Below, one piece after another: positions 13,488 to 51,624 of a stretch of 64,000 nt of DNA. Below the pieces are notes generated by a model. The model did not search any database. It was not told the DNA's origin and saw nothing but the letters and a program-made list of their open reading frames with translations. The stretch spans positions 558,001 through 622,000 of the forward strand of contig JAMXDE010000024.1 in the NCBI GenBank assembly GCA_026770025.1, read 5' to 3'. Each line of letters opens with the position of its first letter. Positions within the stretch are counted from its first letter, which is position 1. Position numbers and translations under genes: made by a program. This stretch comes from Craspedostauros australis. Taxonomy: Eukaryota > Bacillariophyta > Bacillariophyceae > Mastogloiales > Achnanthaceae.

Positions 13488-15068
13488 ATGGTGAATTCAC
13501 AGGAGGAACAAATGGTGAGAGACCCGCCCGTTGGAAATGACGCATCACCAGAGCCAACAGAGAAGACTCAGATCAGAGGCAAGGCCATGACATTTGAACA
13601 TCGTACCATCACCAGAAGCATCAGTAGCGATGGCAGCCTGAGTGATGGCAGCAGAAGTGACGACAATAGCATCCCAACCACCGCCACCGATGCTTCCAAA
13701 CGTCAAGGCAGCTTCTACACTGCTGTGGACGCAACACGGGCTCTTCAACTTTCGCTCGTGGTCTCTGCCATCGTCTTCGCAGCGCTGGAACTTCTGAATG
13801 CGAAGTTCAAGAATGACAATGTCTGGGGATACTGCCAGACAGGATTCCCCGAGCCGTTGCGTTGGTGTGAGGCGGGAGGAGCGGAACTCGCACACTTCAT
13901 GGTGGAGCCGGCCAACGCACGTAGCAACTACGGATATTTCATCCTCGGCGTCTACCTCGTGACATGGGGCTGCCTGCAACGACAAAAGGTCCTTGCATTG
14001 GAACGGATTGCTGCGGATAGCGGCAAAGAATCCCCGCAGCAGCCCAAATCGATAGACACCCGGCGTCGTCGCAGCGAACAGTCTGCCACGACGAATGCCA
14101 CGATCAGTGAAATCTTCAGCGACACAATCGGGTCCACAAGGTCCGGGGCAATCATCGCCGCTGAGGCCGGCGCTAGGGATACACCAGCAACTGAAACAGC
14201 AGCAGCAGCCGCAGCCGCAGCAACTGATGTCGCCAGCGAAGCTGATGAATCATCAATGGACCCGCTTGAGTACCTGGAGCAAATGAATGCGTACCACCGT
14301 TTCCCATTGTTAACCATCACATCCGGTCTGTCGTTGATGGTCCTCGGATTCGGTTCTTGGTGGTTCCATGCGTCGGAATGCCCCAGTGCAAATCAATGGG
14401 ACGCAATCGGTATGTTCGGCATCTCTGTGTCTCCGGCACTCTTCTGTCTGGCATCGCTGATCCCCAACCCACGCCGCTTCCTCTTCGTGGTCCCGCTCAC
14501 CCACGCATCACTCATCGCAATGGAGCTGCTGGTCGACCTTGGGGACTTGATTTGGGTGGGAGCCCTGCTGGGGATTTCGTTCGTCCTCATCATCGTCATG
14601 GTGGTTGTCCACAGGGGTGCCTACACGTACGACTTCCGAGCGCTAGGAGCCACTCTCTTCACCCTGGCCGTATCATTCTCCATCTGGATCCTGGATGTGA
14701 GTGATAACATCTGCGGCAGCGGATTTGGCGGCCACCCATTCTGGCATCTCGGCACGTGTCTGGCCATTGCTTTCATCTTCCTCTTCCTCAAGTCGGAGAG
14801 ACCCGTGACGAAAGCGAGCATTAACAACTGCAGCGACGGTTGCGATGATATTGGAATTGGCGGCGGCGACAGCAATGCTGATAGAGTAGCTGACACGATC
14901 ATTGATTTGGAAGCAAACGTCGCTCCTTCCATGGCCGATACAAGACACACACTGGTGGAATCGGGCACATCTCCATCGCATGTTGCAGTTGCTGCTCCTG
15001 CTGCTGAGTTGCGCGCAAAATCGGTTGGAGCTCCGCAAGGTTGCGACATGGAGCACGGCGCCGATTGA
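13488..15068 (+). CDS. Alkaline ceramidase/CREST-superfamily membrane hydrolase-like protein
   Basis: This 526-aa protein has about seven transmembrane segments. The CREST-family metal-hydrolase signature can be followed in order: WCEAGG and ARSNYGYF (glutamate and the conserved Ser-Asn), FGSWWFHAS then QWDAIGMF (His and Asp), and C-terminal HPFWHLGTC (two His). These are the residues that bind zinc in alkaline ceramidases and related receptors. A long Ser/Ala-rich loop with an eight-alanine run separates the early helices from the middle ones, and the C-terminal tail after the last helix (from about residue 440) is hydrophilic. A likely role is ceramide or other lipid amide hydrolysis in the ER or Golgi membrane, but the substrate cannot be inferred from motifs alone. 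It starts at the first ATG of the frame. Confidence 0.72.
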   Translation: MVNSQEEQMVRDPPVGNDASPEPTEKTQIRGKAMTFEHRTITRSISSDGSLSDGSRSDDNSIPTTATDASKRQGSFYTAVDATRALQLSLVVSAIVFAALELLNAKFKNDNVWGYCQTGFPEPLRWCEAGGAELAHFMVEPANARSNYGYFILGVYLVTWGCLQRQKVLALERIAADSGKESPQQPKSIDTRRRRSEQSATTNATISEIFSDTIGSTRSGAIIAAEAGARDTPATETAAAAAAAATDVASEADESSMDPLEYLEQMNAYHRFPLLTITSGLSLMVLGFGSWWFHASECPSANQWDAIGMFGISVSPALFCLASLIPNPRRFLFVVPLTHASLIAMELLVDLGDLIWVGALLGISFVLIIVMVVVHRGAYTYDFRALGATLFTLAVSFSIWILDVSDNICGSGFGGHPFWHLGTCLAIAFIFLFLKSERPVTKASINNCSDGCDDIGIGGGDSNADRVADTIIDLEANVAPSMADTRHTLVESGTSPSHVAVAAPAAELRAKSVGAPQGCDMEHGAD

Positions 15069-15790
15069 TGTCGCACAAGTTTTGACAAGTACAGCAAGAG
15101 ACTACAGTTAACATCACAGATACGTACCAACAAGGCTGGCATCTATAATACTTTGCATTGACGAAGCCTTTTAGCCCCGACAAGAAAGAGAAAGGGTACG
15201 AGTGCGAGGCTCCACCTTCCACGGAAGACTTTTGTTGCCTCCGACTTGCACCACACGCGAAGGTGAATGTGGCGGGAAAAGGGTTTGCGACGTATAATAC
15301 CTATCATCCGAGACGAGGAACTGAAGAGTAGAGGAGGAGAGCAAAGGAGACTGCCTGTCTTGCTTCTATCTGCAGGTTTGCAACTGCAACACGTACATGG
15401 GTCACGTTGTCTGTTGCTCTTCCGCTGTAGTCTATGTGCACGCCTCCGTCCATCTTGTGCCCACCCGCAACAACATCTCGTTACCAGCGTAGCGTGGCGG
15501 ACGATGGACAGTCGGAGTATGTGAGGTATTGAGTGATACATACCATGTACCACTTGACCAAAAGATACGAAACCGCTTTTGTCGTGGAAGCCCATCGAAT
15601 GCTAAGCACTCCTCAGGCGAATTCTATCGAAGGTTGAGAGAACGGCAGACACTTTCCTTCTCGTTGACATCCACAAGCGGACGCAGACAAACACAGGTAA
15701 ACAACACCAACTGCGACAACCAGAAATGACTTAGGAAACACAAGGGCCAGCCATGAGAAGGCACACAATCTGGACAGCAGCAACATCGCG
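15069..15790. other. Intergenic region, no supported gene
   Basis: This separates two plus-strand genes. A 150-aa minus-strand frame (15143-15595) and smaller frames have no recognisable motif and biased composition. It is probably the 3' UTR of the ceramidase-like gene plus the promoter of the DsbA-like gene. Confidence 0.4.
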
Positions 15791-16699
15791 ATGTCCCACC
15801 TGGCCATGTCATCGCCTTTGTCGTCGGCTGGATTATTCCCAAGGAGCAAGGCATTCTTCAGAGCTCTGTCTCTTCTTCTCGTCCTGATCGCGAGCGAGAG
15901 CTTCTACGTGAACCAGACGGCATTTCTTCCACAAGCGCACGCCATGACCACTCCAAGAGCAGCAGCGGCATCGAAGCTAGGACGCGCGGTGCCTTCCAAG
16001 ATCAAGGTTACCATCTATTCCGACCTTGCGTGACCCTGGTGTTACGTTGGGCAGAAGCGGTTGACGAAGGCCATCGAGCAATTCACAGCCGCCAATGCAT
16101 CCAACGAGGCAGGTGGGAACGGTGGCACGCCATCCACCATCGAGGTGAACTGGAAGCCGTTCATGATCGACCCTGCCACCAACATCAACGGCGAGACTGT
16201 TCCGGACTACTGCCAAAGGCGTTGGGGCGGCGGCGGCTGGACCAAGAACCTCAAGGTGCAGGGTCGCAAGGATGGTGCGAGTTTCAACAATTGGCAATGG
16301 TGGCCTCACACACTGAAGGCCCACCAGCTGGTGCACTACTGCGAGACGAAGCATCTGCCCACCAACAAATGCAACGCCTTGCTCTTCGACGCCGAGTACG
16401 AACAGGGGCTGAACCTGGCGGACGTCGAAGTGTTGATGGATGTCGCCAGCAAGATGGAGATCACCGAACTGGATGAGCTCAAGAAGTACCTCACGGAAGA
16501 CGAAGGTGCCGCGGAAGTGAACAGAGCAATTGCTTTGGGACGCCGCGATTATGAGATCTCCAGCGTTCCCTTCTTCGTGATCGGCAAAGTGGATGCCGAT
16601 GGCAATCCTTCTCGAAAGCCGTACGGATTCTCTGGTGCCCAAGGACCTGAGACCTTCCTGGGTATCTTCGAGAAGCTGTCATCTTCCGAAACGGCTTAG
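15791..16699 (+). CDS. DsbA/FrnE-type thiol oxidoreductase, predicted selenoprotein (UPWC)
   Basis: The frame 15791-16699 (302 residues) is interrupted by a single TGA at 16031-16033. The bases around it read VTIYSDLA-[TGA]-PWCYVGQKRL. In the DsbA/FrnE family (PF01323) the residue here is the first cysteine of the CPWC redox motif, so TGA as selenocysteine (residue 81) gives UPWC. Both sides are clearly one protein: the thioredoxin strand precedes the TGA, and the helical insertion, the cis-proline loop SVPFFVIG and the family-typical SGAQGPETFLGIFEKL follow in the same frame. The N-terminus has a hydrophobic signal (ALSLLLVLIASESF) and a hydroxylated, basic stretch, so secretory or plastid import is likely. 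The role would be thiol-disulfide exchange. No SECIS element was identified with confidence. Flavodoxin follows downstream on the same strand. Confidence 0.82.
16031..16033 (+). other. In-frame TGA, predicted selenocysteine codon
   Basis: This TGA replaces the first cysteine codon of the CxxC active site. It is the only stop in the 303-codon frame. No plausible GT-AG intron removes it without also deleting the conserved strand and active site. Confidence 0.8.
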
Positions 16700-17822
16700 C
16701 CTGCGACGAGCTGTGATAACAGAGAACGCTCCACGTGGTACGGAGGTTGGTGGATTGGATCGCAACAGAGGAGTGTCCTCCACTCTACTCCGCTCCACTC
16801 TGCTCTCGAGTCTTATATATTGTTTGGGAGCGGATGCCTGATCATGCGATGCCTCGATTGTGATGCCTTGAATGACCGGTGCTTGTGCCTGCAACTGTCT
16901 CTCCCTCTCTGAAGAAGGAGCATTTGTTGTGGCAAACATCGTGAAGAAAGGAGGAACAACAAAAGAGCACTTGCATAAAGAACGGTGCCATGACAGGAGA
17001 GTAGAGTAGAGTAGAACAACAATAATGAAACCAGCGCCACAATATTTGTTCCAACATGTGGCTAGTAGCATACCTGCTCCAGAGTGCATCACATCGCGAA
17101 GGGCTCTGCTCTGCTCTGTTCTCGGCTCTGCTCTCCGAGTGCGACACGCAGACGCAAATCACACATCGCTGTTCTCGACACACAGATCTAATCGAAGTAA
17201 TCACAGAAAATACTACATAGTCGGACGAGTCACAAAGATACCCGCCTTTGCGGTTCTTCTTTTCTCCAGCCACACAAAGTTCCCGACACGAGATGAACAC
17301 GCGTCATGCGAACGGGGAGCGTGTCCAACACCCACGAAACGACGATGGTGACGACTTTGGACAACAGTGTTCACAAAATGCACGATGCAGCCACACTCCC
17401 GAAGCAAGGCGTGCACTCATCCGATGCGTGCTCGACACGATCTGTGTTGGATTTGCTGTCGCGGACTCGACTGATTGGAGGAGGTGCCATGATCGGTCTT
17501 CAAATCTGACAGACCCATCATGACGATCTTCGCACGATGACGTTTCGTTGTGGCTGTTTCTTCCTTCCTGTTGGGCTTCGTTGCGTGTGGATCGCAGTGG
17601 CAATAGCGGTGCGCACATGGTGGTGGCACTGCCGTTGTGTGGAAGGAGAAACAGGGGATGAAGATGTGGCCCTGCAACGCAGCGGTTGCATCGTGGCATG
17701 CTGGGGAGGACGTTTGATCCAACATGAACCAGCCTTCCAACAACCGTATCCATCTCATAAAAACGAGAAAGATATCTCAACGAGCCATCAATACCACCAC
17801 CACCACCACTGCAATCAACATC
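16700..17822 (+). other. 3' region of the DsbA-like gene and flavodoxin upstream region
   Basis: No protein gene is supported, although frames of 60-150 codons occur. If the DsbA-like gene is a selenoprotein, a SECIS stem-loop should lie here on the plus strand. I found hairpins but none with a convincing SECIS core: GAGGA/TCCTC around 16768-16780, ACACGC/GCGTGT around 17294-17323, and a two-part stem at 17489-17522 following an ATGA. A short GAGTA repeat is at about 16998-17013. Confidence 0.45.
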
Positions 17823-18422
17823 ATGAAGATCGTCATCCTTTCCGCTCTCGTCGCAGGCTCCAGCGCCTGGGTCGTGCCATCCGCCAGCATGCGCTCTGCC
17901 ACCGCCCTCAACGCCCACGGCCTCTTCTACTCCACCTCCACTGGAAACACCGAGACCTGCGCCGGATACATCGCCGAGGCCACCGGCCTTGAAGCCCTTG
18001 ACATTGGTGATGCTTCCGACGGTGACATCACCGGAGCCGACGGCCTTATCGTGGGTGCCCCAACTTGGCACACTGGCTCCGACGAGCAACGCTCCGGAAC
18101 CTCGTGGGATGACTGGCTCTACGACACCCTCCCAAACCTCGAGCTCGAGGGCAAGAAGGTCGCCATCTTCGGATGCGGAGACCAGCAGTCGTACTCCGAC
18201 TACTACTGCGACGCCGCCGGTGAGCTGTATGACAAGTTCGTCGAGAAGGGCTGCAAGGTCTACGGTCTCACCTCCACCGATGGATACGAGCACCAGGAAT
18301 CCAAGGCCCAGAAGGACGGCAAGTTCGTCGGTTGCATGTTCGACGAGGACAACCAGTACGACATGTCCGAGGATCGCGCCAAGGCTTGGGTTGCCCAGCT
18401 CAAGACAGAGGGATTCTTCTAA
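17823..18422 (+). CDS. FLD: Flavodoxin, plastid-targeted
   Basis: This 199-aa precursor of flavodoxin is an FMN electron carrier that replaces ferredoxin at photosystem I, classically under iron limitation. The frame opens upstream at 17724, but the ATG at 17823 starts the signal peptide MKIVILSALVAGSSA, followed by WVVPSASMRSATAL. The signal cleavage site followed by an aromatic residue and a short Ser/Arg-rich transit segment is the bipartite plastid import signal of diatoms and relatives. The mature protein begins HGLFYSTSTGNTE, whose STSTGNT loop binds the FMN phosphate. APTWHTGS and FGCGDQQSYSDYYCD form the two isoalloxazine loops, with Trp and Tyr in the usual places. The C-terminal block FVGCMFDEDNQYDMSEDR is typical of long-chain flavodoxins. 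Confidence 0.96.
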   Translation: MKIVILSALVAGSSAWVVPSASMRSATALNAHGLFYSTSTGNTETCAGYIAEATGLEALDIGDASDGDITGADGLIVGAPTWHTGSDEQRSGTSWDDWLYDTLPNLELEGKKVAIFGCGDQQSYSDYYCDAAGELYDKFVEKGCKVYGLTSTDGYEHQESKAQKDGKFVGCMFDEDNQYDMSEDRAKAWVAQLKTEGFF

Positions 18423-18891
18423 ACTCTCAGACCTCGGTGCACTGTTGGCTCATGCAATGTGCTGAGATACAAGCTTGTTTCAGGCAGGTAGACAGGCAGG
18501 TACACCACGCACGCACGCATACACGCACAGACAGACAGATATCCACCCAGACTTTCCAATAACCAAAGCAAAATAGAAGGAACCATTTACCACTTTCTGC
18601 GACATTCTGGGATGAGATTTGTATTCTCTAGGTTCGATACTCTAGCCCCTCTTGCGAACTTGTGTTGTTACGGAGAACGCGGGAGACTTTCTCCACATCA
18701 CGGGATGTTTGGACCGGAACGTTCGAACGTGATCGCACCACACAAAAACAGCATCCTGGTGGCCTTTGTTGATGTCTCCAGACAACCCAACGACCCATCC
18801 TTGATCATCTCCACACTAACACGATTTCACAAGCACGCCAACAACAGGAACGAACGTATCGCCAACAGCATTAGCAGAAGGCGGAATAGGC
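18423..18891. other. Intergenic region with short CA/GA-rich repeats
   Basis: This is probably the flavodoxin 3' UTR and the PIG-W promoter. Imperfect ACGC, GGCAGGTA and CAGA repeats occupy about 18480-18540. No gene was seen. Confidence 0.5.
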
Positions 18892-20412
18892 ATGGCGTCG
18901 TCAAAGGCAGACAAGGAAGCCTTCGTGACAGGCCACGAGGGATCCAACCCGTTCGAAGTATTCTTCGTGACGCTCTCGGCACCTCTCAGCGTGATGGTGG
19001 GCGCCATCTTGCAGCAGCATCTACGACAACGAGTCAGAAAGAGGGATGGGACCAGCGTGGATCTGCCCATAAATGCTCCCGAGTTGGCACTGCAATGCGT
19101 CGTCATATTTCTGCCAATCATCCTGCAGCAGACGAGGTACCTGTGGCCGTACGGTGCTGCCATCGCCCTCATCCAACTGTGCGTCATGTTCGTCCATTGT
19201 CAATTACAGGGCCAGCACAGCACCACAACAGCAACGCCAAGTGCAAGCCACGCAGACACCGGCGACAATCCACAACCCGAACAGCCACAACGACGACGAT
19301 TGCGACCACGCCTCCCGTTCCTCACGATCTACCGATCTTCCGTCATGGTGCTGACCTTCGTCGCCATCCTGGCAGTCGATTTCCACGTCTTCCCGCGCAG
19401 GCACTGCAAGACAGAGGTCTACGGATACGGGTTGATGGATGTGGGGGCGGCGTCCTTTTGTTTTTCGGGCGGCTTGGCAGGTTCCAAATTCTCCAACACC
19501 CTTCCCCTCATCGCATTGGGCGTGATTCGGTTGGTGACCAACAAGGGGCTGGAGTATCAGGAACACGTGACAGAGTACGGCGTGCACTGGAACTTCTTCT
19601 TCACGTTGGCGGTGCTGGCAGTGATGGGAAATCTGATGCCATCCTCATTGCAGAAGCCAACGTGGGCGCTGCCGGCTGGGTCACTGGGCCTGTACCAATC
19701 ATTGCTATCGTTCGGCAACGTTCAGGTGTACATTGAAGACGCACCGCGCGTCTGCTCCGGCGATCCCTACGCGATGGAATCCGTCTGCGATCTGTTTGCC
19801 GCGAATCGCGAAGGCATTCTGAGTTGCGTAGGGTATGTCGCAGTCTATTGGATGGGGCAAGCCATTGGTCAGCAATGCCTGTGGTCCCAAACAGATCCAA
19901 CAGGCATGACGAAGGTCCCGCAACCGCGGCCATTGGCCTTCCTCAAGATCGCAGCGACGCTGTGGACTATCCATGCAATCCTAACAGTCGCATTGCAAAT
20001 TCCGGTATCCCGACGAAGTGCCAACTCCAGTTTTTGCGTCTGGATAGCAGCACATCATGCGACGTTGCTGGCAATGATCGATTGGACATGGGCGCGCATT
20101 CATTCAGGCAGCAGCCATCCCACGACAGACTCGACCGTTCCAGATGTGTGGTCCAAGATCAATCGCCATGGATTGCCCATGTTCGTCATCGCCAACCTCC
20201 TCACAGGAATCGTCAATCTCTCCATCGATACGATGGCTGTATCCGACCCCATCGCAGTTTGCATCGTGTTTGCGTACCTTGCCATCGTGGGTATCATTGC
20301 CACGAAAATCGGCTGGATACGGTCAACGATCATCACGGTGGCGCAATTGTCAAGAAAACCTGCCAATCTGCAAGTGTCGGGAGCATCCAAGTTCGAGGAA
20401 AAGGAGCAGTGA
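18892..20412 (+). CDS. PIGW: GPI-anchor inositol acyltransferase PIG-W/GWT1
   Basis: An intact 506-aa multispanning ER protein that acylates the inositol of glucosaminyl-phosphatidylinositol early in GPI-anchor synthesis. The N-terminal KEAFVTGHEGSNPFEVFFVT and the signature DFHVFPRRHCKTEVYGYGLMDVGAASFCFSGGL region match the family (FPRR, E, G, LMD-G-G-F-FS). About a dozen hydrophobic helices follow; the C-terminal one (IAVCIVFAYLAIVGIIATKI) precedes a short charged tail. It starts at the ATG at 18892, which opens the hydrophilic N-terminus typical of the family. The gene is convergent with GC-PDE copy A. Its last 250 bases are duplicated at 50956-51205. Confidence 0.92.
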   Translation: MASSKADKEAFVTGHEGSNPFEVFFVTLSAPLSVMVGAILQQHLRQRVRKRDGTSVDLPINAPELALQCVVIFLPIILQQTRYLWPYGAAIALIQLCVMFVHCQLQGQHSTTTATPSASHADTGDNPQPEQPQRRRLRPRLPFLTIYRSSVMVLTFVAILAVDFHVFPRRHCKTEVYGYGLMDVGAASFCFSGGLAGSKFSNTLPLIALGVIRLVTNKGLEYQEHVTEYGVHWNFFFTLAVLAVMGNLMPSSLQKPTWALPAGSLGLYQSLLSFGNVQVYIEDAPRVCSGDPYAMESVCDLFAANREGILSCVGYVAVYWMGQAIGQQCLWSQTDPTGMTKVPQPRPLAFLKIAATLWTIHAILTVALQIPVSRRSANSSFCVWIAAHHATLLAMIDWTWARIHSGSSHPTTDSTVPDVWSKINRHGLPMFVIANLLTGIVNLSIDTMAVSDPIAVCIVFAYLAIVGIIATKIGWIRSTIITVAQLSRKPANLQVSGASKFEEKEQ

Positions 20413-20831
20413 CGGCACCATCTATCGCCGCTTCGGATCCTCTCCCTCTGTTGCATTCGCATGTTGCTTGATGGACTCCAACAGACGAGTACAACCACAT
20501 ACCATGTCCCGGAGCTGGATGGGGCGAGTAGGCCACAAGCAAAACGTAGAGGACGCAAACTACGCCAGTTAGGGCCTTCAAAATGAATTCCGCGCGGACA
20601 TGCTCGATGATCTCAACGAACAGGAGGACAGGTAAGAGTGTGTATGGTTCTTATTGTTAACATTTGCGATGGTGCGATTTGGGCATCCGATTTCCTCTTC
20701 CCTCAGAGTCTCCGTTCGCTCTCAGATCTCACACATTGCCATGTCTGGGCAACCTCCGTCGTGATTCCATCATCGACGTGACCTCCCACGGTCACGTTAT
20801 CGCTCCTTGCGTTCGCCAGTTATACTCACGA
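20413..20831. other. Convergent spacer between PIG-W and GC-PDE copy A
   Basis: This is probably the two 3' UTRs. Short frames exist on both strands and are shared with copy B, but they have no motif. No gene was called. Confidence 0.5.
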
Positions 20832-23800
20832 TTAAGATGAAGCTGTCGACACTGAGGTTGCTGCCGACAGAGCGAGTGGATCGGGTTTCGCTGCTTCGGA
20901 AGAGATACTGCTGTTCTCCAAATCGAGCGCATCCACCATGTCTGCCAACACCTCACGCCCTCTGGCCTCCCACTCCTTTCGGTTTGCTAGCGCATAGTTC
21001 AGGTACTCATCGCTCGACTTGCCAAATACACCACACTCCTTCAGCTTCTTGGCCAACGGGATGATGTAAAAGTCAAAGAAACCGATCTCACCTTCATACC
21101 AATTCTCCATGGGATTGGTACCAGATCGACCAGCTTGGTAGGCTGTGTAAAACTCCTTGAACAGCCTCTCGTTCCACTTGCGATACACATGCCAGTGCTG
21201 CATGGTGTGCGCGACATCGGAGGCCTGGATCAAGTGCTCAATCACGATCGTGGCCTTGCGGTTGATCGCATCTCGAGGATCGTCCAGCTGGGTTGATGGA
21301 TAGTCTGGTGATGACACCGATTCACCCGCTGGCTGTTGCAGCAGCTGCTGCTGTTGTTGTTGCTGCTGTTGTTGCTGCTGCTGGTGGTGCTGCTGGTTGA
21401 AGGCCTTGTCCCATCGGTCATTCCTCAGCTTCTTCAGATCGGCGTCGACGATGTCTGTTGCCATGACACCGTTCACCACAAGCTGCCTCAGACGACGGAG
21501 CTCGGATGTCGTGGAGCAGATGCACTCACGAAGCTCCAGGAAGTCCTCGGCCATGAATAGATCCCAGGCAAGGACCACGGAGTTCTGCTCGGCCACAGAT
21601 CGGTTGTTGTACAGCGTTGCGATCCTGGTCTTCTCCTTCACGAGCTGAGCGTTGGTCACTCCGACATGATCGACATCATGGATGAGAGCAGAGAAGGCGC
21701 AGGCAAACTGGGTCAACGGATCAGAAGTGATACCGCACGTGTGATCGTGGAGGCTGGCCGCGACTTGATCGGTGGCTTCGGTGACCGAAACTCCATCAAT
21801 CGACTTCTCCAGCATCAGGTCGGTCGGTGCAACGATGCGAGCCAGGAGTTTGATGACGGACATGGTCACATGCGATGCGTGCTCGAAGTTGTGGAAGGAA
21901 TTGGCTCGGTACATGCTGGCGATGCTGGCGATCAGCTCTCGCAGCTGCTGCACGATGACAGGATCGAGATGGATCTGATCTGGATCGGCATACTGTCTGG
22001 CGATCTTGGAATCGAACTCAGGAAGGCTGATGATCTCCCGCACCTCATCGAGCGGATTGAAAGTCGTACCGATATCGATGTCGATGTCGGATGGGTGAGC
22101 AGAAGGCTGGTCCCAACTTGAGGAGCTTGCGAATACTTGAGATCGACGTGGCTTCACAGTGGAGTTCTTGTTGATGGCATCCCTGCGGGCGACGATCTGC
22201 TTGATCAGATTCAGCAGCATCTCCACGTTCCAGTCCACAAGACGCAGGCTGCGCTCGTCCAGTCCGCTTTCTGCGACGCGGCCTGATTGGTGCACTGGTC
22301 TGGATGGAACCGACATGAGGCTCTGCAGGAATCCAGCATCGCTGTTGCTGGTGCAGCTTCCGCGATCCTTCTGGTCGTATCCAGAGCCGATCCAGTATCT
22401 GCGCATCGGAGGGACGTCAAATGAGCGATGGAGCAGACAGGAAGACAGGTGGCAATTGAGAGATAGATTGCACAGAACAGGAGTAATCATGAGTGAGATG
22501 AAGATGAAGACGACAAACGAAGCAACAACAGTGTCGGGAATAGTAGGCAGTAGCATCAACAGCATCAACAGCATCAACAACACAAACACAAACACCAATG
22601 CAACCGTCAACTCACGTTTGCATATCCCCCTTTCCTTTGGCATTCACCATGTGCTCGCGTTTGATCAGCCAGTGCCCCTTGCCGCAGAATTTCAAATACT
22701 CAGCAGTCTCCGTAGACACCTGGATTCGCCCAACCTGACCAGTGTGCTCGATACGGGAAGCCGTATTCATCGTGTCCCCGAACAGCTGGAAGCGAGCCCT
22801 CTCTCCTCTCAGGACACCAGCGGTCACCGGACCCGAGTGGATTCCGATACGAAGCGACAGATCACCCGTATCTGGGCCGTGCGTGATCTCCAGCTCCTTC
22901 GTCATCACGTTCACGCGTGTGAGGATATCGCGAGCGAATCGGACCATCACCACGGCATGATCCTTTCGCGGATCAGGGATGCCGGTGGCGGCGACGTAGC
23001 AGTCACCGACGGTCTCGACCTTGAACACACGACGGGCCTTGGCGATCTGATCGAAGGAAGAGAAGATCTTCTCCAGGAACGTGAACACCTGGGATGGCTC
23101 ACGGACGGAGCTCCAGGCGGTGAAGCCTGCGATATCCGCGAACAGGATCGTCGTGTCAAGGAACAGATCAGCCATGGGACGTGAGTCCATGCCAGAACCC
23201 TCAATGTCTCCGGCCAGGAAGCTCTTGAGGCCGGAGATTTGGCTGGCAACGCCCTTGTTTTTTCCTGCCTGACTGTTGGTGATGAGTCGATCGCGGATGT
23301 TTCGCGGGAAGAGGGACGAGACGATGGCGTTGGACTTGGCCGCATTCTCGACCAGTCTTTCGTTGCGGCGGTAGACGAAGAGGTCGTAGATGAAGAAGAC
23401 GACCGCAACGAAGACGAATGTACAGCACACGATGATGGCGAATATCTCCGGAGTGAACTTGTCGTATGGTTGCTGGAAGTCGCGGGAGGGGTAGAGGAAC
23501 ATTGAGTACTGGCAGTGTCCTGGGGTGGTTGCGAAGTCTGCATGATCGTTGAGGGCGAGGTCGACCTTTCGTTCGTAGTTGTTGTACTTTGGGTCATGCA
23601 GGTCACCTGGTGGTTGTGGACGATGGGTGGATTGAGTGAAAGAGAGAAAGAAGGAGGGGCTGTGTGAGCTTGTTGCGTCTGAGGGTTGGGTGCATTAGTG
23701 TCATACTTGCATACAGACACTTGTACGTTGGTTGCTTCCTGCCTAGTGTGTATCGTTGCACGGGAGTGATGTGATGCGCGATCGGTGAAGTTCAACTCAC

Positions 23801-25538
23801 GCGACTCGTGGTGTGCACCACTTCGCGAGTATCAAGACAGTATGCTTCGAGCGAAGCGAGTGGCAACACTTACCGTTTCCCTCGAAGATGGCATCACCGC
23901 CATTGATGACATAGGTGTAGGATTGGTTGCAGTCGTTCTTGATGACAGCGTAGAGGCCCTTGACGTTGGAAGGGAGTAGATCCTTCAGTGCAGCGTCCCA
24001 TGCAGCTCCGCCACCCAACACAGCGACGATTTTGGAGTTGTAGTCTCCCGGTTTCTCATGAACGGGTTGGTACATGAAGCTGTGTGGATGTTCGGTGCTG
24101 GAATCTTTCAGCTTGGCATGCATGGCCTCATGTTCTTCTTGTGTAAAGCTGATGCCTGCCCCAACGTAGTGTCGAACATTGGTGACCATTGTTTGGTTCT
24201 TGAGGGCAAATAGTGCGCCGGGGATCCCAGCAAAGTCAGGCACAGAGTAAACATTCCAGTTGACGAAGCCGTATGTAAACGGTGCAGGATAGAATTCCCA
24301 AGTCGCAAAGTAGCGATCGCGTGGAATGTCTTCAATCAAGCCCTTCGGAGTGGCTCGGGTGATGTACGGGTGAAATCCAACTGGAATTAGCCTATCCAAG
24401 TGTCCGTGCTGTTCGATGTGAGCGCCTTGGACCATGGACTCGTGTCTCTCGGTGGTGTAACTGGCCCACTCCTCCAGCTGGTTGGGTTCCACAAGATGAA
24501 AGCAGCCAACCAACTCCATCGGAGTTTGGTCAAGGAAGGGTTGGACATGCGTTCCGTAGTAATCATTCGTCACGAATGGCCATGTTTGGTTGGTGATCTC
24601 GGCCGATGCTGACACGGCATCTGCCAACCCCCGGTATCCTATGCGGAGGACTCGTTGCTGATCGACAGCAGCATCTCCGACTGTTCTGGAGAATTGCTTG
24701 AACTGTGCGCATGAGCGTCCAAACGATTGATTGATGCGAATTGGTAGTACGATGGCGCACAGCAGTTCGAAAACCGGGGAGGTTCAGTCATAGACAAGGA
24801 AGGATTGAGATGGATGAGTGATGGTTGACGTGATGAAGAGAAGAGAGGTGAGATGCCGTTTTGCCATAAAGCACGGGGGACGCTTGACCAGGAGGAAATT
24901 TGGTGGACTGTTTTGCCCACGAACTTGGAAGTTGGTATCCTCGAAGGGACAGACTTCTTGGCGGCATACTTACGGCGGTCTCGAAGTTCTCGTCCTGTTC
25001 ATCTTGGAGGAACTGGTGGGAGGAGCATGCGGGGCAGGTTGGTGTGAGGGTGTGCAGCAATGGCGAAACAGATCGATGGTGAGGTTAGTGCATGAACGAC
25101 AAGCATTGAGATGGTGCCGGTTGAGATCAGGCATCGGGCATCGACATCGACAAAGTCAAGATCGATGTTGGTGATGATAACACCAAAGATAACACCAATG
25201 AAACCACTGGTGATGGATGCTGTACATAGTCGTGGATGAAGATGAATCATCGACAGGCCACCAACCCAAACCTCCAGCCGTGTGAGCATTCAGATCTCTC
25301 GCATTTGAGATCGTGAGTCAACAAGTTCTTGGACACAACTTACGCTGTATGTGGTCCAGGTGACCGTGACTGCTGTTGCGAGGAGAGCGCCGGTTACCAT
25401 CAGCCTCCACAGCCGAATGTTCAGTGTGTCATTTCTGGCGGCATTGCGCACAGCCTGAACCTCATCGCCCTCGTCGGACACAGAGCCCATACCTTGGCTC
25501 GGTGCCACGGAAATAGATTCATCGATACTCTCTGACAT
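20832..25538 (-). CDS. Receptor cyclase-phosphodiesterase fusion, copy A
   Basis: Five exons (25538-25344, 25012-24974, 24702-23874, 23606-22616, 22398-20832) have GT-AG junctions and phases that sum to a 1206-aa frame. Residues 1-46 are cytosolic and about 43-65 form TM1 (LMVTGALLATAVTVTW). Residues 66-407 are a sensor region beginning with a short coiled segment (FLQDEQDENFETAFKQF) and with several N-glycosylation sequons. TM2 is near 409-428 (IVCCTFVFVAVVFFIY). The class III cyclase (about 500-690) has metal Asp in ILFADIAGFT and VETVGDCYV, and transition-state Asn/Arg in MNTASR. The class I PDE follows with HNFEHA, LIHDVDHVGVTN and ASDVAH. It probably makes and degrades a cyclic nucleotide at the plasma membrane. 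A CAG-encoded glutamine tract (13 Q) lies inside the PDE and is longer than in B and C. Confidence 0.9.
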
Positions 25539-25780
25539 CTCGACCCCTCGCTTCTTCGACGTTGTCTCGGCCTCTTGATTGATGGTGTTGTTGTTGTTGT
25601 TGTTGTTGTCGTCGTCGTCGTCGTTGAACTGGTGCGTGCTTTGTTTGCAATACGCGCGCGGCTTGTCTTGTGTTGCTCTTGTTCGTGATGCTATTGGTTC
25701 GTTTGCTTGTCTTGCTTTGCTTGTCTCTCTCTCCCTCTCTCTCTCTGCGTTTATGTTTGAATGTGCGTCTCTCTCTCTCT

Positions 25781-25851
25781 GTGCGTGTGTTTGTGTGCGT
25801 GTGTTTGTGTGCGTGTGTTTGTGTGCGTGTGTTTGTGTGCGTGTGTTTGTT
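25781..25851 (+). repeat. 12-bp minisatellite (GTGTTTGTGTGC)n
   Basis: About six tandem 12-bp units lie some 240 bases upstream of the GC-PDE copy A start codon, flanked by CT-rich runs. Copy B has a shorter version at 56591-56632. It lies in the gene's 5' UTR or promoter. Confidence 0.85.
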
Positions 25852-26099
25852 GCTTCCTTCTTTTCCAGTATTCTGCATTTGTGAGCGGCCAGCAAAAGAG
25901 ATGTCGCAAGTTGTGTCGCTTACGCTCCCACCGCTCGAATCTTCCGAGTATGCGTAATAAGTTCCCCTTCATTGCTGACACAGCGCTGCTTTTTCGAAGC
26001 GGTTTCAGGGGAAGGCAAAGCGGATTCGCCAAACTCTCTGGCATGCCATCGTCAAGGTTCAGATACAGACACATGTCCACCCATGAACTGGTAGTTTTT

Positions 26100-28636: not shown

Positions 28637-29436
28637 TGTCGAGATGTACATGTGAGTATATGTCAAGATGTACGTGTATATGTGCATCGTTCACCCGCTA
28701 TTCTCTCATACGCACTTGGATGGTATAACTACACTCGTGTCGATAGTATGCTGTGATTCGTCAGAATTACAGAGGAAATGGAACACACGAAAAGGGGCAA
28801 GATTTCTGGAGGAAATTTGCAAATAACGATTTCTGGGAGAATCAGAATATCGTCCGTCCATGCATCAATGGTACCAAGAGAATCTCGAGGTACTTCCCAA
28901 CTAAACCTCAGATGACGATATCATCTGACAGACTACTGCATCACCAATGGAACGTGACATCTGGAGAACAGAAGGACGCCTACTGACGTCGACAGGATGT
29001 CAACATGTCACCACGTCGACAGCTGTCTCCAAGTCAGAGCAGGAGGCGAAGATACAATGACCCATGAAGATCATGGATACTGAAGGTGAACTTCAAATGG
29101 TAAGTACTCATGGAGTAGAAGCCAGTACTGAATGAACGGAGTGTCGAATGCGGAGCACGCATCAAACACGGAGTATCGTGTAGCATGAGCACATGATGTT
29201 GAGAGAGAGAGAGAGAGAGAGAGAGAATACAGAGAGGAGCGAGAGAGGATCTCGCGTACCGACTCATAGTCGGAGACTGAATCTACGAAACAGATTGAAG
29301 CGCCGAGAGCATCGGGCAAGAAAACGGCGTACACCGAGAGCATCGGAGTAGCCAAGTAATGAAATAGCAAACAGACGACTATCAACCAACACCATCTTCC
29401 ACAATCGTAGGTTACCGTGAGCGGAACTTGCCAACA
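28637..29436 (+). repeat. 5' LTR of element 1
   Basis: 800 bp, TG...CA, containing a GA microsatellite (about 29200-29226). Confidence 0.9.
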
Positions 29437-29518: not shown

Positions 29519-32500
29519 ATGAGCGAGGAAGAGGAATTGAAAGAGATCCCTCTGTCCAATCCGGCTATCAAGATAGAAGAAGGTGCGAGTGAGACTCCAC
29601 CACGACAAGAGAAGGAAGCAGCCGCGGCTACTGTCCTATCAGGCGCAGACGCAAGCGCAATCGACGAGACCGAAGAAGAACGGTCTGCAAGACTACATCG
29701 TAAGGAGAAGAGGATTCTCGAGGCGATCAAGCAAGAGGAGACTGGTGTGACGAAGAGCATTCGCACAGCCAAACAGGGTGGGAAAAGTGAGACACCACCA
29801 GGAGGAGAATTTGTGACGAAAACAATCTCCGCGCAACAACAGGCGAAAATCGAAGAATCGGCAACACAGAAACAGACGGAAATCAAGGGCGCGAGCGCAC
29901 CAACGACGAAACAACGAACCAACATGGCGACATCAGCCAACATGAACAAGCGACGCATCAAGGCGCCAATGTTCAGCGGTGAACAGGAAGACTACAGCGC
30001 ATGGGAGTCCCAAGCGAAGGCATACGCTCGTGCACAGAAGACGAGAGACGTGATGCTGGGCAAGACCAAGGTGCCAACAGTGAGCGAGACCGCGGCAGCC
30101 GCCGATGAAGACAAGGAAGCGATGGAGGAGATCTACGAGCTGGGATGCGACTGCTTCAGCGATCTGATCCTCATGATGGATGCAGAGAAAGGAAAAGGTA
30201 AGCAGGCCATCCAGTACATCAACCAATGCGTCTCCGACGACTACCCCGAAGGAGACGCACACGGAGCGTGGAACGTTCTCGCGGAGAAGTTCCGACCATC
30301 CGACGCAGTGACGAAGATCAAACTCAAGCGCCAATTCAACAACGAAAAGATAAAGAGAGACACGGACCCCGACATCTACATCACGCAACTCGAGAGTCTA
30401 CGATCGCGTCTCCACGATGTCAAGTACACGATCACGGACGAGGAGATGATCATGCAGATTCTCAGCACGGTGAGCGTGGAATACAAAACCCACGTCGTGA
30501 ACTTCCAACACCAACTCACGTTCAATCCGGAACTGGTTACCATCAACACGATCAAAGGAGTACTCCGCACTGCATACGCCACGCACAGAGGAGGCAAAGC
30601 ATACGTCGACGACTTCCAAGACAGCAACACAAAGAGCAACGACACCGGCTTCACAAGCACCGGTAACTTCAAGGGTACTTGTCACAACTGTGGCATGTAT
30701 GGCCATAGATCCGCCGATTGCCCAGAACGCAAGAAATCGAACAACGAGAAAAACAACAACAACAACAACAAAATGAACGGAAAGCGCAACAAGGGAAGCG
30801 GCTTCAAAGGCAAGTGCAACTACTGCGGCATCTTCGGACATCGTGAGGCGGAGTGCCGAAAGAAGAAGTTCAACGAAAGCAAGAAGAACAACGAACAAGC
30901 CAACGCGGCTACGGAAGGACACGACAAGAGTGGGCACGAGATGGTACTCTCAGCAAAGGACATGCCGCTCTGCATGTTGGTGTCCGACGACTACATCAAA
31001 GACTCCTTCTTCGATAACTTCGAATACGTCGGGAGTGACGACGAAGTGCAGGATGATGAGATCATCCCGGAGTGGCTCAGCGAGGAGCCAATCATCCACG
31101 AGGTGGATCCAAGACGCGAAGTGAGCTACGAATGCTGCTTCAACGCGCACGATCTGATCGGTTCATACGGCGACGAAGCTGAGATGGACGACGAGGCCAA
31201 CGATAGCGACATCGAAGAGGCCATGAGCGATGACGATGAGGCGGACCGCGGCGCGGCGCCTCCTCCCCCAGCGGCGGGAAACAACAGATCGGGCATCTTC
31301 GACGAGGATGACAGCGACGAATCCGAGGACGGCAATCATCCAGACGACAGCTTCAATCCAAACGAGCGTGTCGTCTACCCAGGGAACATCGACTTCCCAC
31401 CTATTGAGGATCCCAACAGCGTCGATTACCTCCTCCGTCACAGCACCATCCCGAATGCAACAGCAACAGCATTGATAATCCAAAAGCAGCTCATCTTTGA
31501 CGCCGTAATGGAAGCGGGGATGCGAGTGTTCCCAGGAACAACACGAGGAGCACTCATGCCAATATGGGTGAACATGATGGGATCCATCCTATCCGAGAAC
31601 TTCGAATCAATCGAAGAGATCCTTGTCAATGCGATCATCATCAACCGCATACTGGAAGCGAACAACTCGGAAACGATCCCAGAGACGGATCTGCATTACA
31701 TCCTTGGAGGATGCATGCGCGTGCTCTTACGAGAGCGATCACGCGTCCACCCATACGATCCAGCCACAGGATCTCATCGGAACAGTACGATTCCATCGGA
31801 CTACGCGCAACTACCCAATGACATGGACGATGAGGATCACCGCAATCCATACAACGAAGATGGAGTCCACAAAGACGACGATGACGGCAGCTTCAACGAC
31901 GAGATAGCTGCAGCAGCCGTGGAGCAGCTCCACGAGCTGAGCACCAGATACAAGGACAAGGTCAACAAGGACACCTGGCTCGCCGACAGCGGAGCTTCGT
32001 GTCACATCGTCAACTCGGACGCCGCTCTCTTCAACGTGCGGCACATCAAGTCCTTCGTCCAAGTGGGAGACAGCACGAAGCTGGATTCTCCCAAGATGGG
32101 ATCCATTCGCTTGAAGGTCAAGCAGCGAGACAACACTGGCCACATCATCCGGCTCGATGACGTGAAGTACACACCGAAAATGGCGGTGAACCTTTTCTCC
32201 ACGAACAAGGCTCTGTACAACGGTTACCAGCTTGGTAACAACGGCATTCTGATGGACATCATCAACGGATCCGGAACGAAGATCGTGTTCGATCGAGTCT
32301 TCCCTACATCCAACGGATTCATCACGGGAGTGCAGATGCATCCCATCATGCCGACAGACGACGACAAGGCTTGCACAGCCATCGTCAAGAATTCATCCAA
32401 GGAGATCAGCGCGGTGAACCTGCACCGAATGCTCGGCCACGCGCCACTCGAGACCATGAAGCGGACGGCCGCTCAGTATGGATGGAAGATCATCGGCGAG

Positions 32501-35500
32501 ATGCCGGTATGTCGCGACTGCGCGGTCGCGAACGCAAGAGTGAAGAATATTCCGAAGGCAACCATTCCAAGAGCAACTCGCCGTGGCGAACGGCTCTTCA
32601 TTGACATTAGTTACACTAAACACATAAGCTTCGGAGATAAACGCTACTGGACCCTGATCGTGGACGACTGCACGGATCACTGCTGGAGTTTCTTTCTCAA
32701 GAACAAAAGTGATCAACCAGGATACATCAAACGATTCGTTCAAACGATCAAGTCACAGACTGGTGACCAACAGATCATCTTCCGAGGTGACAACAGCGGA
32801 GAGAACAAATCCACGCAGGATATTCTCATCGATGCAGGACTCAACGTGAAATTCGAATACACGGCATCGAACACGCCGCAACAGAACGGCAGAGTGGAAC
32901 GCAAGTTCGCGTACCTCTACACCAAGATCCGCTCCATGCTCAACGGAGCACAGCTCGACGAAGAGTATAGGCATGGCCTGTGGGCAGCGGCTGCTAGCAC
33001 TGCCACCGCCATCGCCAACATCACCGTAGCGAAGAACCAGAAGGAGTCACCACATCGACAATTCTTCGGCAACGATCCACCATATGCGGATGCACTCCGC
33101 ACGTTTGGAGAGGTGGGTGTTGTGAAGACTACCTACGGCGGGATTACCGCCAAACTCAAGAATAGAGGAGAAGAGATGGTGTTCATCGGATATGCACACC
33201 AACATGCATCAGGGGTCTACAACATGTACAGACCATCGACCAAGTCACTCATCTGTTCACGGGACATCAAGTGGCTCAACCAATCATACGGACAGTTCCG
33301 TGGCTGGGCACCAGCACCGAACATATCCAACGAAACAGGAACAACGGACGCAGATGGCTTCACAACCATCGGACGGAAGGGAGCAACGCCAAGAACGGTA
33401 ACGCGTCAAACATCGGAAGCGAAGAGAGTATCTTTCGCTGACAGCAACAGGTACTACATCCTATCAGACAGCGATGATGAGGATAATGAGGACGACGGAG
33501 TAGTGACTCAAGCAATCCGAAATAACGAGGAGGATCGGAGCGAATCCAATCATGAGGATGATGAGATCCTACCATCCGGCGACGAAGCCGACGATGACAC
33601 AGGTGTCACCCCTCCGAATACACCAGCGAGGTCTACACATGACACACCATCCAGACCTCCACCGAGCAAACCAAGCAAGCGTGACATGGCTAGAAAGGAG
33701 AGGATCCGACGTCACGAATCACGAGGCAGGAAGGGAGAAACTAATCCCAAGTCAACTGCAGGGAAAAGTATTCCCAGAGCTCTGCGTGAGCTCGCAGACT
33801 TCAACGAACGAGGTCGAAAGGAACAAGGCTATGAAAGCGATCCATCATCCAATGAGGCGAGTGACGAACTCAGCGACGAGATGATCGACGATTCCAATAA
33901 CGAAACTACAGATGACGAAGAAATCGAAGACGAAGATGAAGAGATCGAGATCACTCACCATAGCACAACTGGATTATACGGGATGAATGCAATCATTACC
34001 GAGAGACCAGCGATCGACATCGGATTGTCGATGCAGGACGAGAACAAGGAACCAGAGAAGCACATCGAACCTACAACGTTCGACGGAGCTTTCAATCACC
34101 CAGATCCTATCCATCGAAAGGGATATCGAGCAGCCATCAAGAAGGAGTTCGACTCCATGGATACACGCAAGGTGTACAGCAAGATCAAACGAGACGCCAT
34201 CCCACGCGGCCGCAGATGCTGCAAGTGCAAATGGGTCTTCAAGCTGAAGCGTGATGGCACACATCGAGCACGGCTCGTTGCATGTGGCTATTCACAAGTC
34301 GCAGGAGTAGACTTCCAAGAGCATTACTCACCCGTCATCCATGACGTGACCTATCGGGTCATGATGGTGATCATGCTAATCAAGAAAATGGACTGCGCAC
34401 TCGTCGATGTCGTAACAGCATTCCTACATGGAGACCTCGACGAGGAGATCTACATGAACTGTCCCAACGGGATGGATCATCAACCAGACGAAGCCCTGAC
34501 CCTACACAAGCCAATCTACGGACTTGTGCAGAGCGCCAGGCAATGGTTCAAGATGTTGGTATCGACCCTCAAAAATATCAACTTCGAACAGAGCGCAACA
34601 GACCCATGCCTGTTCTACAGGAAGACGAACGAAGGAAGCATGATCGTGGCCATCTACGTGGACGATTGCTTCTGTTGTGGAGACTCCAAGGCACTGGAGA
34701 CATTCCTGAAGGACATCCAAGGTAGCAAGTTCAAGGTGACAATCGAGCGCGGACTCGGAGACTACCTCAGCTGCAACATCAAACTGAACCATGACAAGAC
34801 TAGAGCGACATTGCGTCAACCACATCTCATCCGACACCTCATCAAAGAGTTCGGAACCAAGGTTGAGAAGATGCAACGCTATGGGACACCGGGAACCCCG
34901 GGCCAAATCATCGTACGACCATCCGAAGATAACGGACTGCAGAAGGTCGGACCGGAAGAACATGCCGAATACCGCCGAGGCGTCGGTATGCTACTCTTCC
35001 TCATCAAGCACTCGCAACCAGATATCGCGAACCCTGTGAGGGAACTCTCCAAGGTATTGATCGGGCCCACCAAGGCCGCAATGAAGGAGATGTATCGGAT
35101 CATCAAATACGTGATCAATACACAACACTACAGATTGAAGATCCATCCAGCGCGTCCAGACGACGACGGCTGGGACATGGAGCTCTTCTGCGATAGCGAA
35201 TATGCAGGAGACAAGAACACAAGAATCAGCGTAGGAGGGTTCATCCTATACCTGTGCAAGGTACCAATCCTTTGGCGATCCAAAGTACAGAAGGCCGTCA
35301 CACTCAGCTCATCCGAAGCAGAATACGTTGCCCTTTCCGAAGCGGCAAAGGAGATCTTCTTCGTTGTGCAGCTACTCGAAAGTGTGGGCGTCCCAGTGAA
35401 GACACCGATCAAGGTCCGCGTGGACAACATCGAAGCAATCTTCATCGCCAAGAACCCATCAACATCCCAACAATCGCGGCACATCGACGTGCGCCATCAC

Positions 35501-35653
35501 TACGTGAGGAACATGGTAATCAACAAAACCATCGAAATCATTTTTGTCAAATCCGAGCAGAACACAAGCGACGGATTCACCAAGAACATCAAGGCTGACT
35601 TACAACGTGAACACGAGAAGTCGTACCTTGACACATCGAGAACATTCGAATGA
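29519..35653 (+). CDS. Copia gag-pol polyprotein, element 1
   Basis: A single intact frame encodes 2044 aa. Gag is followed by two CCHC zinc knuckles (CHNCGMYGHRSADC and CNYCGIFGHREAEC) near residues 390-450. An acidic region and an uncharacterised helical domain lie at about 30950-31900. The aspartic protease follows (WLADSGASCH, near residue 820), then the integrase with its His-His-Cys-Cys zinc domain (HRMLGH...CRDC) and D,D-35-E core ending in QQNGRVERK. A long acidic linker leads to the reverse transcriptase (KWVFKLKRDG, YVDDC near residue 1712) and RNase H (SDSEYAGD, LSSSEAEYVAL). This order (integrase before reverse transcriptase) defines Copia. The acidic, Asp/Glu-rich spacers are long for the family. 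All catalytic motifs are present and no stop interrupts the frame, so the element may be competent. Confidence 0.95.
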   Translation: MSEEEELKEIPLSNPAIKIEEGASETPPRQEKEAAAATVLSGADASAIDETEEERSARLHRKEKRILEAIKQEETGVTKSIRTAKQGGKSETPPGGEFVTKTISAQQQAKIEESATQKQTEIKGASAPTTKQRTNMATSANMNKRRIKAPMFSGEQEDYSAWESQAKAYARAQKTRDVMLGKTKVPTVSETAAAADEDKEAMEEIYELGCDCFSDLILMMDAEKGKGKQAIQYINQCVSDDYPEGDAHGAWNVLAEKFRPSDAVTKIKLKRQFNNEKIKRDTDPDIYITQLESLRSRLHDVKYTITDEEMIMQILSTVSVEYKTHVVNFQHQLTFNPELVTINTIKGVLRTAYATHRGGKAYVDDFQDSNTKSNDTGFTSTGNFKGTCHNCGMYGHRSADCPERKKSNNEKNNNNNNKMNGKRNKGSGFKGKCNYCGIFGHREAECRKKKFNESKKNNEQANAATEGHDKSGHEMVLSAKDMPLCMLVSDDYIKDSFFDNFEYVGSDDEVQDDEIIPEWLSEEPIIHEVDPRREVSYECCFNAHDLIGSYGDEAEMDDEANDSDIEEAMSDDDEADRGAAPPPPAAGNNRSGIFDEDDSDESEDGNHPDDSFNPNERVVYPGNIDFPPIEDPNSVDYLLRHSTIPNATATALIIQKQLIFDAVMEAGMRVFPGTTRGALMPIWVNMMGSILSENFESIEEILVNAIIINRILEANNSETIPETDLHYILGGCMRVLLRERSRVHPYDPATGSHRNSTIPSDYAQLPNDMDDEDHRNPYNEDGVHKDDDDGSFNDEIAAAAVEQLHELSTRYKDKVNKDTWLADSGASCHIVNSDAALFNVRHIKSFVQVGDSTKLDSPKMGSIRLKVKQRDNTGHIIRLDDVKYTPKMAVNLFSTNKALYNGYQLGNNGILMDIINGSGTKIVFDRVFPTSNGFITGVQMHPIMPTDDDKACTAIVKNSSKEISAVNLHRMLGHAPLETMKRTAAQYGWKIIGEMPVCRDCAVANARVKNIPKATIPRATRRGERLFIDISYTKHISFGDKRYWTLIVDDCTDHCWSFFLKNKSDQPGYIKRFVQTIKSQTGDQQIIFRGDNSGENKSTQDILIDAGLNVKFEYTASNTPQQNGRVERKFAYLYTKIRSMLNGAQLDEEYRHGLWAAAASTATAIANITVAKNQKESPHRQFFGNDPPYADALRTFGEVGVVKTTYGGITAKLKNRGEEMVFIGYAHQHASGVYNMYRPSTKSLICSRDIKWLNQSYGQFRGWAPAPNISNETGTTDADGFTTIGRKGATPRTVTRQTSEAKRVSFADSNRYYILSDSDDEDNEDDGVVTQAIRNNEEDRSESNHEDDEILPSGDEADDDTGVTPPNTPARSTHDTPSRPPPSKPSKRDMARKERIRRHESRGRKGETNPKSTAGKSIPRALRELADFNERGRKEQGYESDPSSNEASDELSDEMIDDSNNETTDDEEIEDEDEEIEITHHSTTGLYGMNAIITERPAIDIGLSMQDENKEPEKHIEPTTFDGAFNHPDPIHRKGYRAAIKKEFDSMDTRKVYSKIKRDAIPRGRRCCKCKWVFKLKRDGTHRARLVACGYSQVAGVDFQEHYSPVIHDVTYRVMMVIMLIKKMDCALVDVVTAFLHGDLDEEIYMNCPNGMDHQPDEALTLHKPIYGLVQSARQWFKMLVSTLKNINFEQSATDPCLFYRKTNEGSMIVAIYVDDCFCCGDSKALETFLKDIQGSKFKVTIERGLGDYLSCNIKLNHDKTRATLRQPHLIRHLIKEFGTKVEKMQRYGTPGTPGQIIVRPSEDNGLQKVGPEEHAEYRRGVGMLLFLIKHSQPDIANPVRELSKVLIGPTKAAMKEMYRIIKYVINTQHYRLKIHPARPDDDGWDMELFCDSEYAGDKNTRISVGGFILYLCKVPILWRSKVQKAVTLSSSEAEYVALSEAAKEIFFVVQLLESVGVPVKTPIKVRVDNIEAIFIAKNPSTSQQSRHIDVRHHYVRNMVINKTIEIIFVKSEQNTSDGFTKNIKADLQREHEKSYLDTSRTFE

Positions 35654-35673: not shown

Positions 35674-36469
35674 TGTCGAGATGTACATGTGAGTATATGT
35701 CAAGATGTACTTGTATATGTGCATCGTTCACCCGCTATTCTCTCATACGCACTTGGACGGTATAACTACACTCGTGTCGATAGTATGCTGTGATTCGTCA
35801 GAATTACAGAGGAAATGGAACACACGAAAAGGGGCAAGATTTCTGGAGGAAATTTGCAAATAACGATTTCTGGGAGAATCAGAATATCGTCCGTCCATGC
35901 ATCAATGGTACCAAGAGAATCTCGAGGTACTTCCCAACTAAACCTCAGATGACGATATCATCTGACAGACTACTGCATTACCAATGGAACGTGACATCTG
36001 GAGAACAGAAGGACGCCTACTGACGTCGACAGGATGTCAACATGTCACCACGTCGACAGCTGTCTCCAAGTCAGAGCAGGAGGCGAAGATACAATGACCC
36101 ATGAAGATCATGGATACTGAAGGTGAACTTCAAATGGTAAGTACTCATGGAGTAGAAGCCAGTACTGAATGAACGGAGTGTCGAATGCGGAGCACGCATC
36201 AAACACGGAGTATCGTGTAGCATGAGCACATGATGTTGAGAGAGAGAGAGAGAGAGAGAATACAGAGAGGAGCGAGAGAGGATCTCGCGTACCGACTCAT
36301 AGTCGGAGACTGAATCTACGAAACAGATTGAAGCGCCGAGAGCATCGGGCAAGAAAACGGCGTACACCGAGAGCATCGGAGTAGCCAAGTAATGAAATAG
36401 CAAACAGACGACTATCAACCAACACCATCTTCCACAATCGTAGGTTACCGTGAGCGGAACTTGCCAACA
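35674..36469 (+). repeat. 3' LTR of element 1
   Basis: 796 bp, preceded by the polypurine tract AGGAAGGG, and nearly identical to the 5' LTR. Confidence 0.9.
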
Positions 36470-50955: not shown

Positions 50956-51205
50956 TCGCCATGGATTGCCTATGTTCGTCATCGCCAACGTCCTCACTGG
51001 AATCGTCAATCTCTCCATCGATACGATGGCTGTATCCGACCCCATCGCGGTTTGCATCGTGTTTGCGTACCTTGCTATCGTGGGTATCATTGCCACGAAA
51101 ATCGGCTGGATACGGTCAACGATCATCACGGTGGCGCAATTGTCAAGAAAACCTGCCAATCTGCAAGTGTCGGGAGCATCCAAGTTCGAGGAAAAGGAGC
51201 AGTGA
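50956..51205 (+). pseudogene. Truncated PIG-W copy (3' end only)
   Basis: This duplicates 20163-20412: the last 80 or so codons of PIG-W including its stop, with a few substitutions (for example VIANVLTGIVN for VIANLLTGIVN). There is no start or upstream coding sequence; the duplication breakpoint lies at 50956. Confidence 0.92.
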
Positions 51206-51624
51206 CGGCACCATCTATCGCCGCTTCGGATCCTCTCCCTCTGTTGCATTCGCATGTTGCTTGATGGACTCCAACAGACGAGTACAACCACATACCGTGT
51301 CCCGGAGCTGGATGGGGCGAGTAGGCCACAAGCAAAACGTAGAGGACGCAAACTACGCCAGTTAGGGCCTTCAAAATGAATTCCGCGCGGACATGCTCGA
51401 TGATCTCAACGAACAGGAGGACAGGTAAGAGTGTGTATGGTTCTTATTGTTAACGTTTGCGATGGTGCGATTTGGGCATCCGATTTCCTCTTCCCTCAGA
51501 GTCTCCGTTCGCCCTCAGATCTCACACATTGCCATGTCTGGGCAACCTCCGTCGTGATTCCATCATCGACGTGACCTCCCACGGCCACTTCATCGCTCCT
51601 TGCGTTCGCCAGTTATACTCACGG

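Follow-up and report, generated by a model that had tools for sequence, protein, structure and literature searches.

A very probable selenocysteine form of a FrnE-type DsbA-like oxidoreductase in Craspedostauros australis

The question raised by this locus is whether a TGA codon inside an otherwise open reading frame ends the protein or is read as selenocysteine (Sec). The window analyzed is the whole 64,000-nucleotide stretch of contig JAMXDE010000024.1 (positions 558,001 to 622,000, forward strand) from the C. australis assembly GCA_026770025.1 (eukaryotic, 74.8 Mb, 90 contigs), and positions given below are those of the window. The gene concerned (15791-16699, + strand; hereafter the window gene) was judged with high confidence to encode a FrnE-type DsbA-like oxidoreductase in which Sec replaces the attacking cysteine (UPWC) and UGA is read as Sec. 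An earlier note, made from the letters of the stretch, had proposed a Sec-encoding TGA and a UxxC oxidoreductase; this proposal is supported by the Sec genes of the genome, other genes with TGA at Sec sites, a paralogue (L002), and a motif shared between 3′ flanks. Read in this way, the locus is a further well-supported selenoprotein gene, one that standard gene callers would cut short.

Reading frame and in-frame TGA

The features of the window gene were as follows.

15791-16699, + strand: predicted selenoprotein coding frame, 302 aa with TGA as Sec, terminal stop TAG; already open from 15701
15791-15990, + strand: N-terminal presequence containing a hydrophobic segment (helix 20-43 in the model), possibly for endoplasmic reticulum or plastid targeting
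16031-16033, + strand: in-frame TGA, predicted Sec, residue 81, attacking residue of UPWC (translation and alignments)
16031-16042, + strand: UPWC redox motif, CPWC in relatives (alignments)
16565-16570, + strand: Val259-Pro260, position of the cis-proline loop (16-row alignment)
16866-16951, + strand: SECIS-like element (SECIS, selenocysteine insertion sequence) in the 3′ flank, with a 4-bp lower stem, an internal loop, an upper stem and a branched apical part

Translation of the 303 codons gave a single internal stop, the TGA at codon 81 between SDLA and PWCYVG, as first described, and a terminal TAG. In line with the prediction that a standard gene caller would truncate the gene, the listing of open reading frames of at least 150 aa on this strand held only a 212-aa piece that starts 3′ of the TGA. 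One point change from a cysteine codon (TGC or TGT) would give the same TGA, and the locus could then be a pseudogene or an allele with a truncated product. This was considered very improbable: the 663 nt past the TGA are open, homologous to the family, and rich in GC at third codon positions (0.73 vs. 0.64 before the TGA), and the paralogues and 3′ elements described below count against it as well.

Homology, fold and active site

A phmmer search of the PDB matched residues 63-295 to Deinococcus radiodurans FrnE (5cp1/5cnw, E = 5.2e-15). The TGA, entered as Cys, aligned with the first Cys of CPWC in a gapless block (SDIACPWCYIG), which confirmed the assignment of the TGA to the attacking cysteine of the DsbA/FrnE family. 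The Pfam DSBA model (PF01323) matched residues 73-288 (3.1e-19; 70 bits, cut-off 25.6); since this match spans the TGA, homology is present on both of its sides, and the part from 16061 onward scored 8.4e-10 alone. Neither the window protein nor L002 had a match in NCBIfam. Together, homology and the structure model showed a thioredoxin fold with a helical insertion, as in solved FrnE, and by fold class the product is very likely a FrnE-type DsbA-like thiol-disulfide oxidoreductase. In the model, the first domain helix (82-107) begins at UPWC (residues 81-84). Val259-Pro260 was invariant in the 16-row alignment and is followed by strand 261-267; we take this site to have the cis-proline loop role of thioredoxin-fold enzymes.

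The residue aligned to the TGA was Cys in 49 of 49 bacterial loci, a count biased towards Cys because CPWCYVGQ was one of the six patterns used to retrieve these loci. The cysteine that the earlier note expected in homologues was thus found in the FrnE structures and the bacterial relatives, to which the comparison was limited. The same block also bears on splicing. There are 36 frame-keeping GT-AG pairs of at least 60 nt that span the TGA (a raw count), any of which might mark an intron that removes it. Such splicing would delete the active-site block, which is gapless against FrnE and invariant in the 16-row alignment (rows partly retrieved with the CPWCYVGQ pattern), and an intronic TGA was regarded as scarcely credible.

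The predicted local distance difference test (pLDDT) was mostly <60 across the N-terminal presequence. Its hydrophobic stretch, modelled at low confidence as helix 20-43, is the sole basis for a possible secretory or plastid location.

DSBA-domain paralogues

The Pfam DSBA search of the genome returned three loci, namely the window gene, L002 and L089. L002 is 26-29% identical to the window protein, and its only internal stop is a TGA at the same position, giving UPFC; this agrees with the earlier argument that a random stop at exactly this codon would be improbable. A diverged paralogue with TGA at the same site also argues against a pseudogene, as would L089, which probably has one too.

L089:1321-2934 (contig C50), - strand: third, divergent DSBA-domain gene, TGA at 2287-2289 in a CTQUPHG context

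In the domain listing L089 showed no internal stop, because its match starts past the active site; the TGA directly precedes PHGYIGK. Read through this codon, the frame has 538 aa and a DSBA match (6.1e-11, residues 328-478, profile positions 20-157), and with TGA as Sec the motif reads VTCTQ-U-PHGYIGKRN. A short BLAST piece aligned CPHGYIGKRNIAAAIDAF of L089 with CPWCYVGQKRLTKAIEQF of the window protein (24.3 bits, E = 0.006). The TGA is residue 216, the Pfam match starts 112 residues beyond it, and about 100 residues between motif and match have no counterpart in the family. L089 is accordingly a probable, not a proven, third Sec case at the matching site, because the motif match is short and the DSBA match starts well past the TGA.

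L089 has no Cys three residues after the Sec position and has one three residues before it. This motif, CTQUPHG where the window gene has UPWC, is the least ordinary observation of the analysis. It is tentatively suggested, at somewhat under an even chance, that all three DSBA-domain loci are Sec proteins of different design (UPWC, UPFC and CTQUPHG), L089 having lost the resolving Cys and possibly using a CxxU pair instead; the chance is lowered because the L089 Pfam match begins so far after its TGA. If true, the redox partner of Sec would have switched sides within one family, a shift that the paralogue makes testable.

Selenocysteine machinery and other TGA genes

The presence of Sec machinery, which the earlier note had named as a check, was found for a tRNA-Sec (76.6 bits, cut-off 47; anticodon read as TCA in the sequence), for eEFSec, in which the eukaryote-specific domains PF21208 and PF21131 are both present, for SepSecS (Pfam model), and for a selenophosphate synthetase, SPS2 (L029), which itself has an in-frame TGA (motif GUACKI). 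It did not extend to PSTK, taken up below. In-frame TGA at the usual Sec site was seen in 2 of 3 GPX matches, 1 of 12 MsrA matches (rows are exons), 1 of 2 Rdx/SELENOT matches and both SelM matches. These positions in the GPX, MsrA, SELENOT-like and SelM-like genes are familiar Sec sites, which indicates that several genes of this genome decode Sec. By itself, an in-frame TGA does not establish Sec: such a codon was also present in an exon piece of an EF-Tu-like gene, one of the 27 selB rows.

Generic read-through might also place some amino acid other than Sec at the TGA of the window gene, a reading for which the atypical apex of the SECIS-like element could be cited. The position of the TGA at the catalytic Cys, a classic Sec site, the tRNA-Sec, eEFSec and SPS2 genes, and the location of other TGAs of the genome at known Sec sites all argue otherwise, and little probability was given to this alternative. 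A Sec-decoding genome likewise counts against the pseudogene.

An MsrB-like reading frame, recognized by eye, lies about 1 kb from the tRNA-Sec gene (locus L003, contig C19).

SECIS-like element 3′ of the window gene

The sequence GAATGACC...CATCGTGAAGA is present at 16870-16947 in the 3′ flank. Within the element at 16866-16951, an NTGA...GA core lies between two stems, the lower of only 4 bp; the internal loop places GAAUGAC (16870-16876) opposite UGAAGA (16942-16947), and the quartet ATGA starts at 16872, 172 nt past the stop codon. On sequence and predicted fold, the element is a candidate SECIS.

A core of AATGAC, stem and [CT]GAA was also found 3′ of MsrA (L018), SELENOT (L025), SPS2 and L002, and an element common to other TGA genes is a further point against a pseudogene. 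The strict pattern (AATGAC, stem, [CT]GAA, stem score of at least 15) occurred in 6 of 10 TGA genes (window gene included, score 17.1) and in 0 of 23 control loci, which are not all independent (L034/L036 are one gene, as are L008/L009). Control downstream regions were measured from the match end and not the stop codon, and L024 and the tRNA loci L003-L007 were excluded. In the 1500 nt downstream, AATGAC alone was present for all 10 TGA genes and for 10 of the 23 controls. The strict pattern did not occur in 346 kb of other sequence of the genome, a total over both strands in which some overlapping loci count twice and from which the eight other TGA loci (sense strand) and the 1500-nt region following the window gene had been removed; 1 of 1000 shuffles of the 1500-nt flank and 0 of 1000 of the 500-nt flank reached the score. 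Scanned with the unchanged pattern, the L089 flank scored 16.8, its AATGAC beginning 125 nt after the stop; this is the only clean held-out case. When folded without constraints, the elements of the window gene, SPS2 and L089 all formed the same 7-nt/6-nt internal loop, GAAUGAC vs. (U/C)GAAnA, between two stems. This core may be a genome-specific SECIS signature, missed by the Rfam model, for finding more selenoproteins.

Several observations weigh against a SECIS-directed Sec insertion. Candidates, including that of the window, had already been viewed when the strict pattern and its threshold of 15 were set, and the best two background scores in the 346 kb were 14.1 and 14.0. With the looser pattern (ATGA...[CT]GA), shuffled sequence reached the score 53 times in 1000 for the 1500-nt flank and 12 times in 1000 for the 500-nt flank. 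The fold energy of the window element was unexceptional (29 of 200 shuffled versions were equally or more stable), z being -1.06 for this element, 0.12 for L002, 0.12 for L089, -7.09 for SPS2 and -3.38 for SELENOT; the minimum-energy fold of L002 lacked a SECIS stem, and its centroid fold showed one. The SECIS limits quoted in PMC2375036 are 10-13 nt between the quartet and AA/CC and 15-39 nt between AA/CC and GA. By hand count, the AA of the window element follows the quartet at 17 nt and precedes GA by 48 nt, outside these limits, and is paired in the predicted fold, while a CC lies 12 nt and 53 nt away from quartet and GA; an unpaired apical AA or CC at that spacing was thus not seen. The SELENOT-like element likewise has AA at 17 nt (hand count). 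The strict pattern was absent 3′ of L011, L012, L027 and L028 (4 of 10 TGA genes), L028 having a similar-looking pair, AATGACGAACAT...ATGTTCTGAACAG, by eye only.

An Rfam scan of 15000-19000 found no SECIS, its one weak match being an unrelated microRNA family, and Rfam SECIS_1 had no match over the genome (133 of 967 first-look candidates scored), a silence that says little because the model also misses the genome's other selenoprotein genes. MAFFT alignments of the SECIS candidates were too poor for a covariance model, and none was built. As to the machinery, PSTK was not established (24.9 bits, cut-off 382), and the SepSecS model also scored above cut-off in Bacillus subtilis and so is not fully specific.

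Proposed mechanism

The CxxC motif of DsbA/FrnE enzymes works through its first residue, which attacks a disulfide or makes a mixed disulfide with the substrate; Sec at that position brings a lower pKa and faster attack. The UGA at 16031-16033 would be decoded as Sec by the eukaryotic route, with a Sec-tRNA of anticodon UCA, eEFSec and a SECIS at about 16866-16951 in the 3′ untranslated region (UTR). U81 would attack the substrate and C84 resolve, and the selenenylsulfide U81-C84 would exchange with thiols or disulfides; a partner protein may then re-oxidize or re-reduce the enzyme. The endomembrane system or the plastid is the suggested site of action, the presequence and the low-confidence helix being compatible with export or a complex plastid.

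Comparison with known systems

The window protein has the same fold and CPWC position as D. radiodurans FrnE (5coh/5cnw; 30% identity) and Streptomyces SCO1869 (3gl5; 26% identity), over 207-209 residues. Both have Cys where the window protein has the predicted Sec, and no part of either aligned to its presequence. Against the bacterial rows of the 16-row alignment, the window protein has the extra N-terminal presequence and two insertions. Three stretches of the viral contigs scanned matched a pattern, and none was a relative.

In bacteria the SECIS sits close to the UGA, and the prokaryotic DsbA-like form with Sec differs in this from the window gene, for which a 3′ UTR element is proposed. 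A 2026 list of prokaryotic selenoproteins gives DsbA-like form 1 as UxxC (PF01323) and form 2 as DxxUP (PMC13188914); form 1 and, as predicted here, the window protein carry Sec at the first position of CxxC in a PF01323 protein.

Sec-DsbA/FrnE is an already published algal selenoprotein family, to which the window gene adds a further member. Sec-containing DsbA is known from algae and marine invertebrates (PMC7539508, PMC2874816, PMC3473315) and a Sec-containing FrnE is published (PMC6627142); between them, the four cover bacteria, algae and marine invertebrates. The site is given as U(or C)XXC in PMC2874816, and PMC7539508 reports SECIS elements sought downstream of its selenoprotein genes and 20-44 selenoprotein genes per diatom. 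The window protein is of the same type with Sec as the algal and invertebrate proteins, a likeness drawn from the published descriptions.

Other features of the window

A flavodoxin gene (17823-18422; PF00258, 9.3e-19) with a plastid-type presequence, recognized by eye, follows the selenoprotein gene at a distance of about 1.1 kb. Three similar block copies (20155-26005, 50948-56784 and 58934-62726) are 82-98% identical in pieces; a Pfam scan that covered copies 1 and 2 found a cyclic-nucleotide phosphodiesterase frame in both, copy 2 having a guanylate/adenylate cyclase frame as well. A Copia-type long terminal repeat (LTR) retrotransposon at 29519-35653 has an uninterrupted 2044-aa frame and is flanked by 99% identical repeats (28637-29436 and 35674-36469), which together suggest recent insertion.
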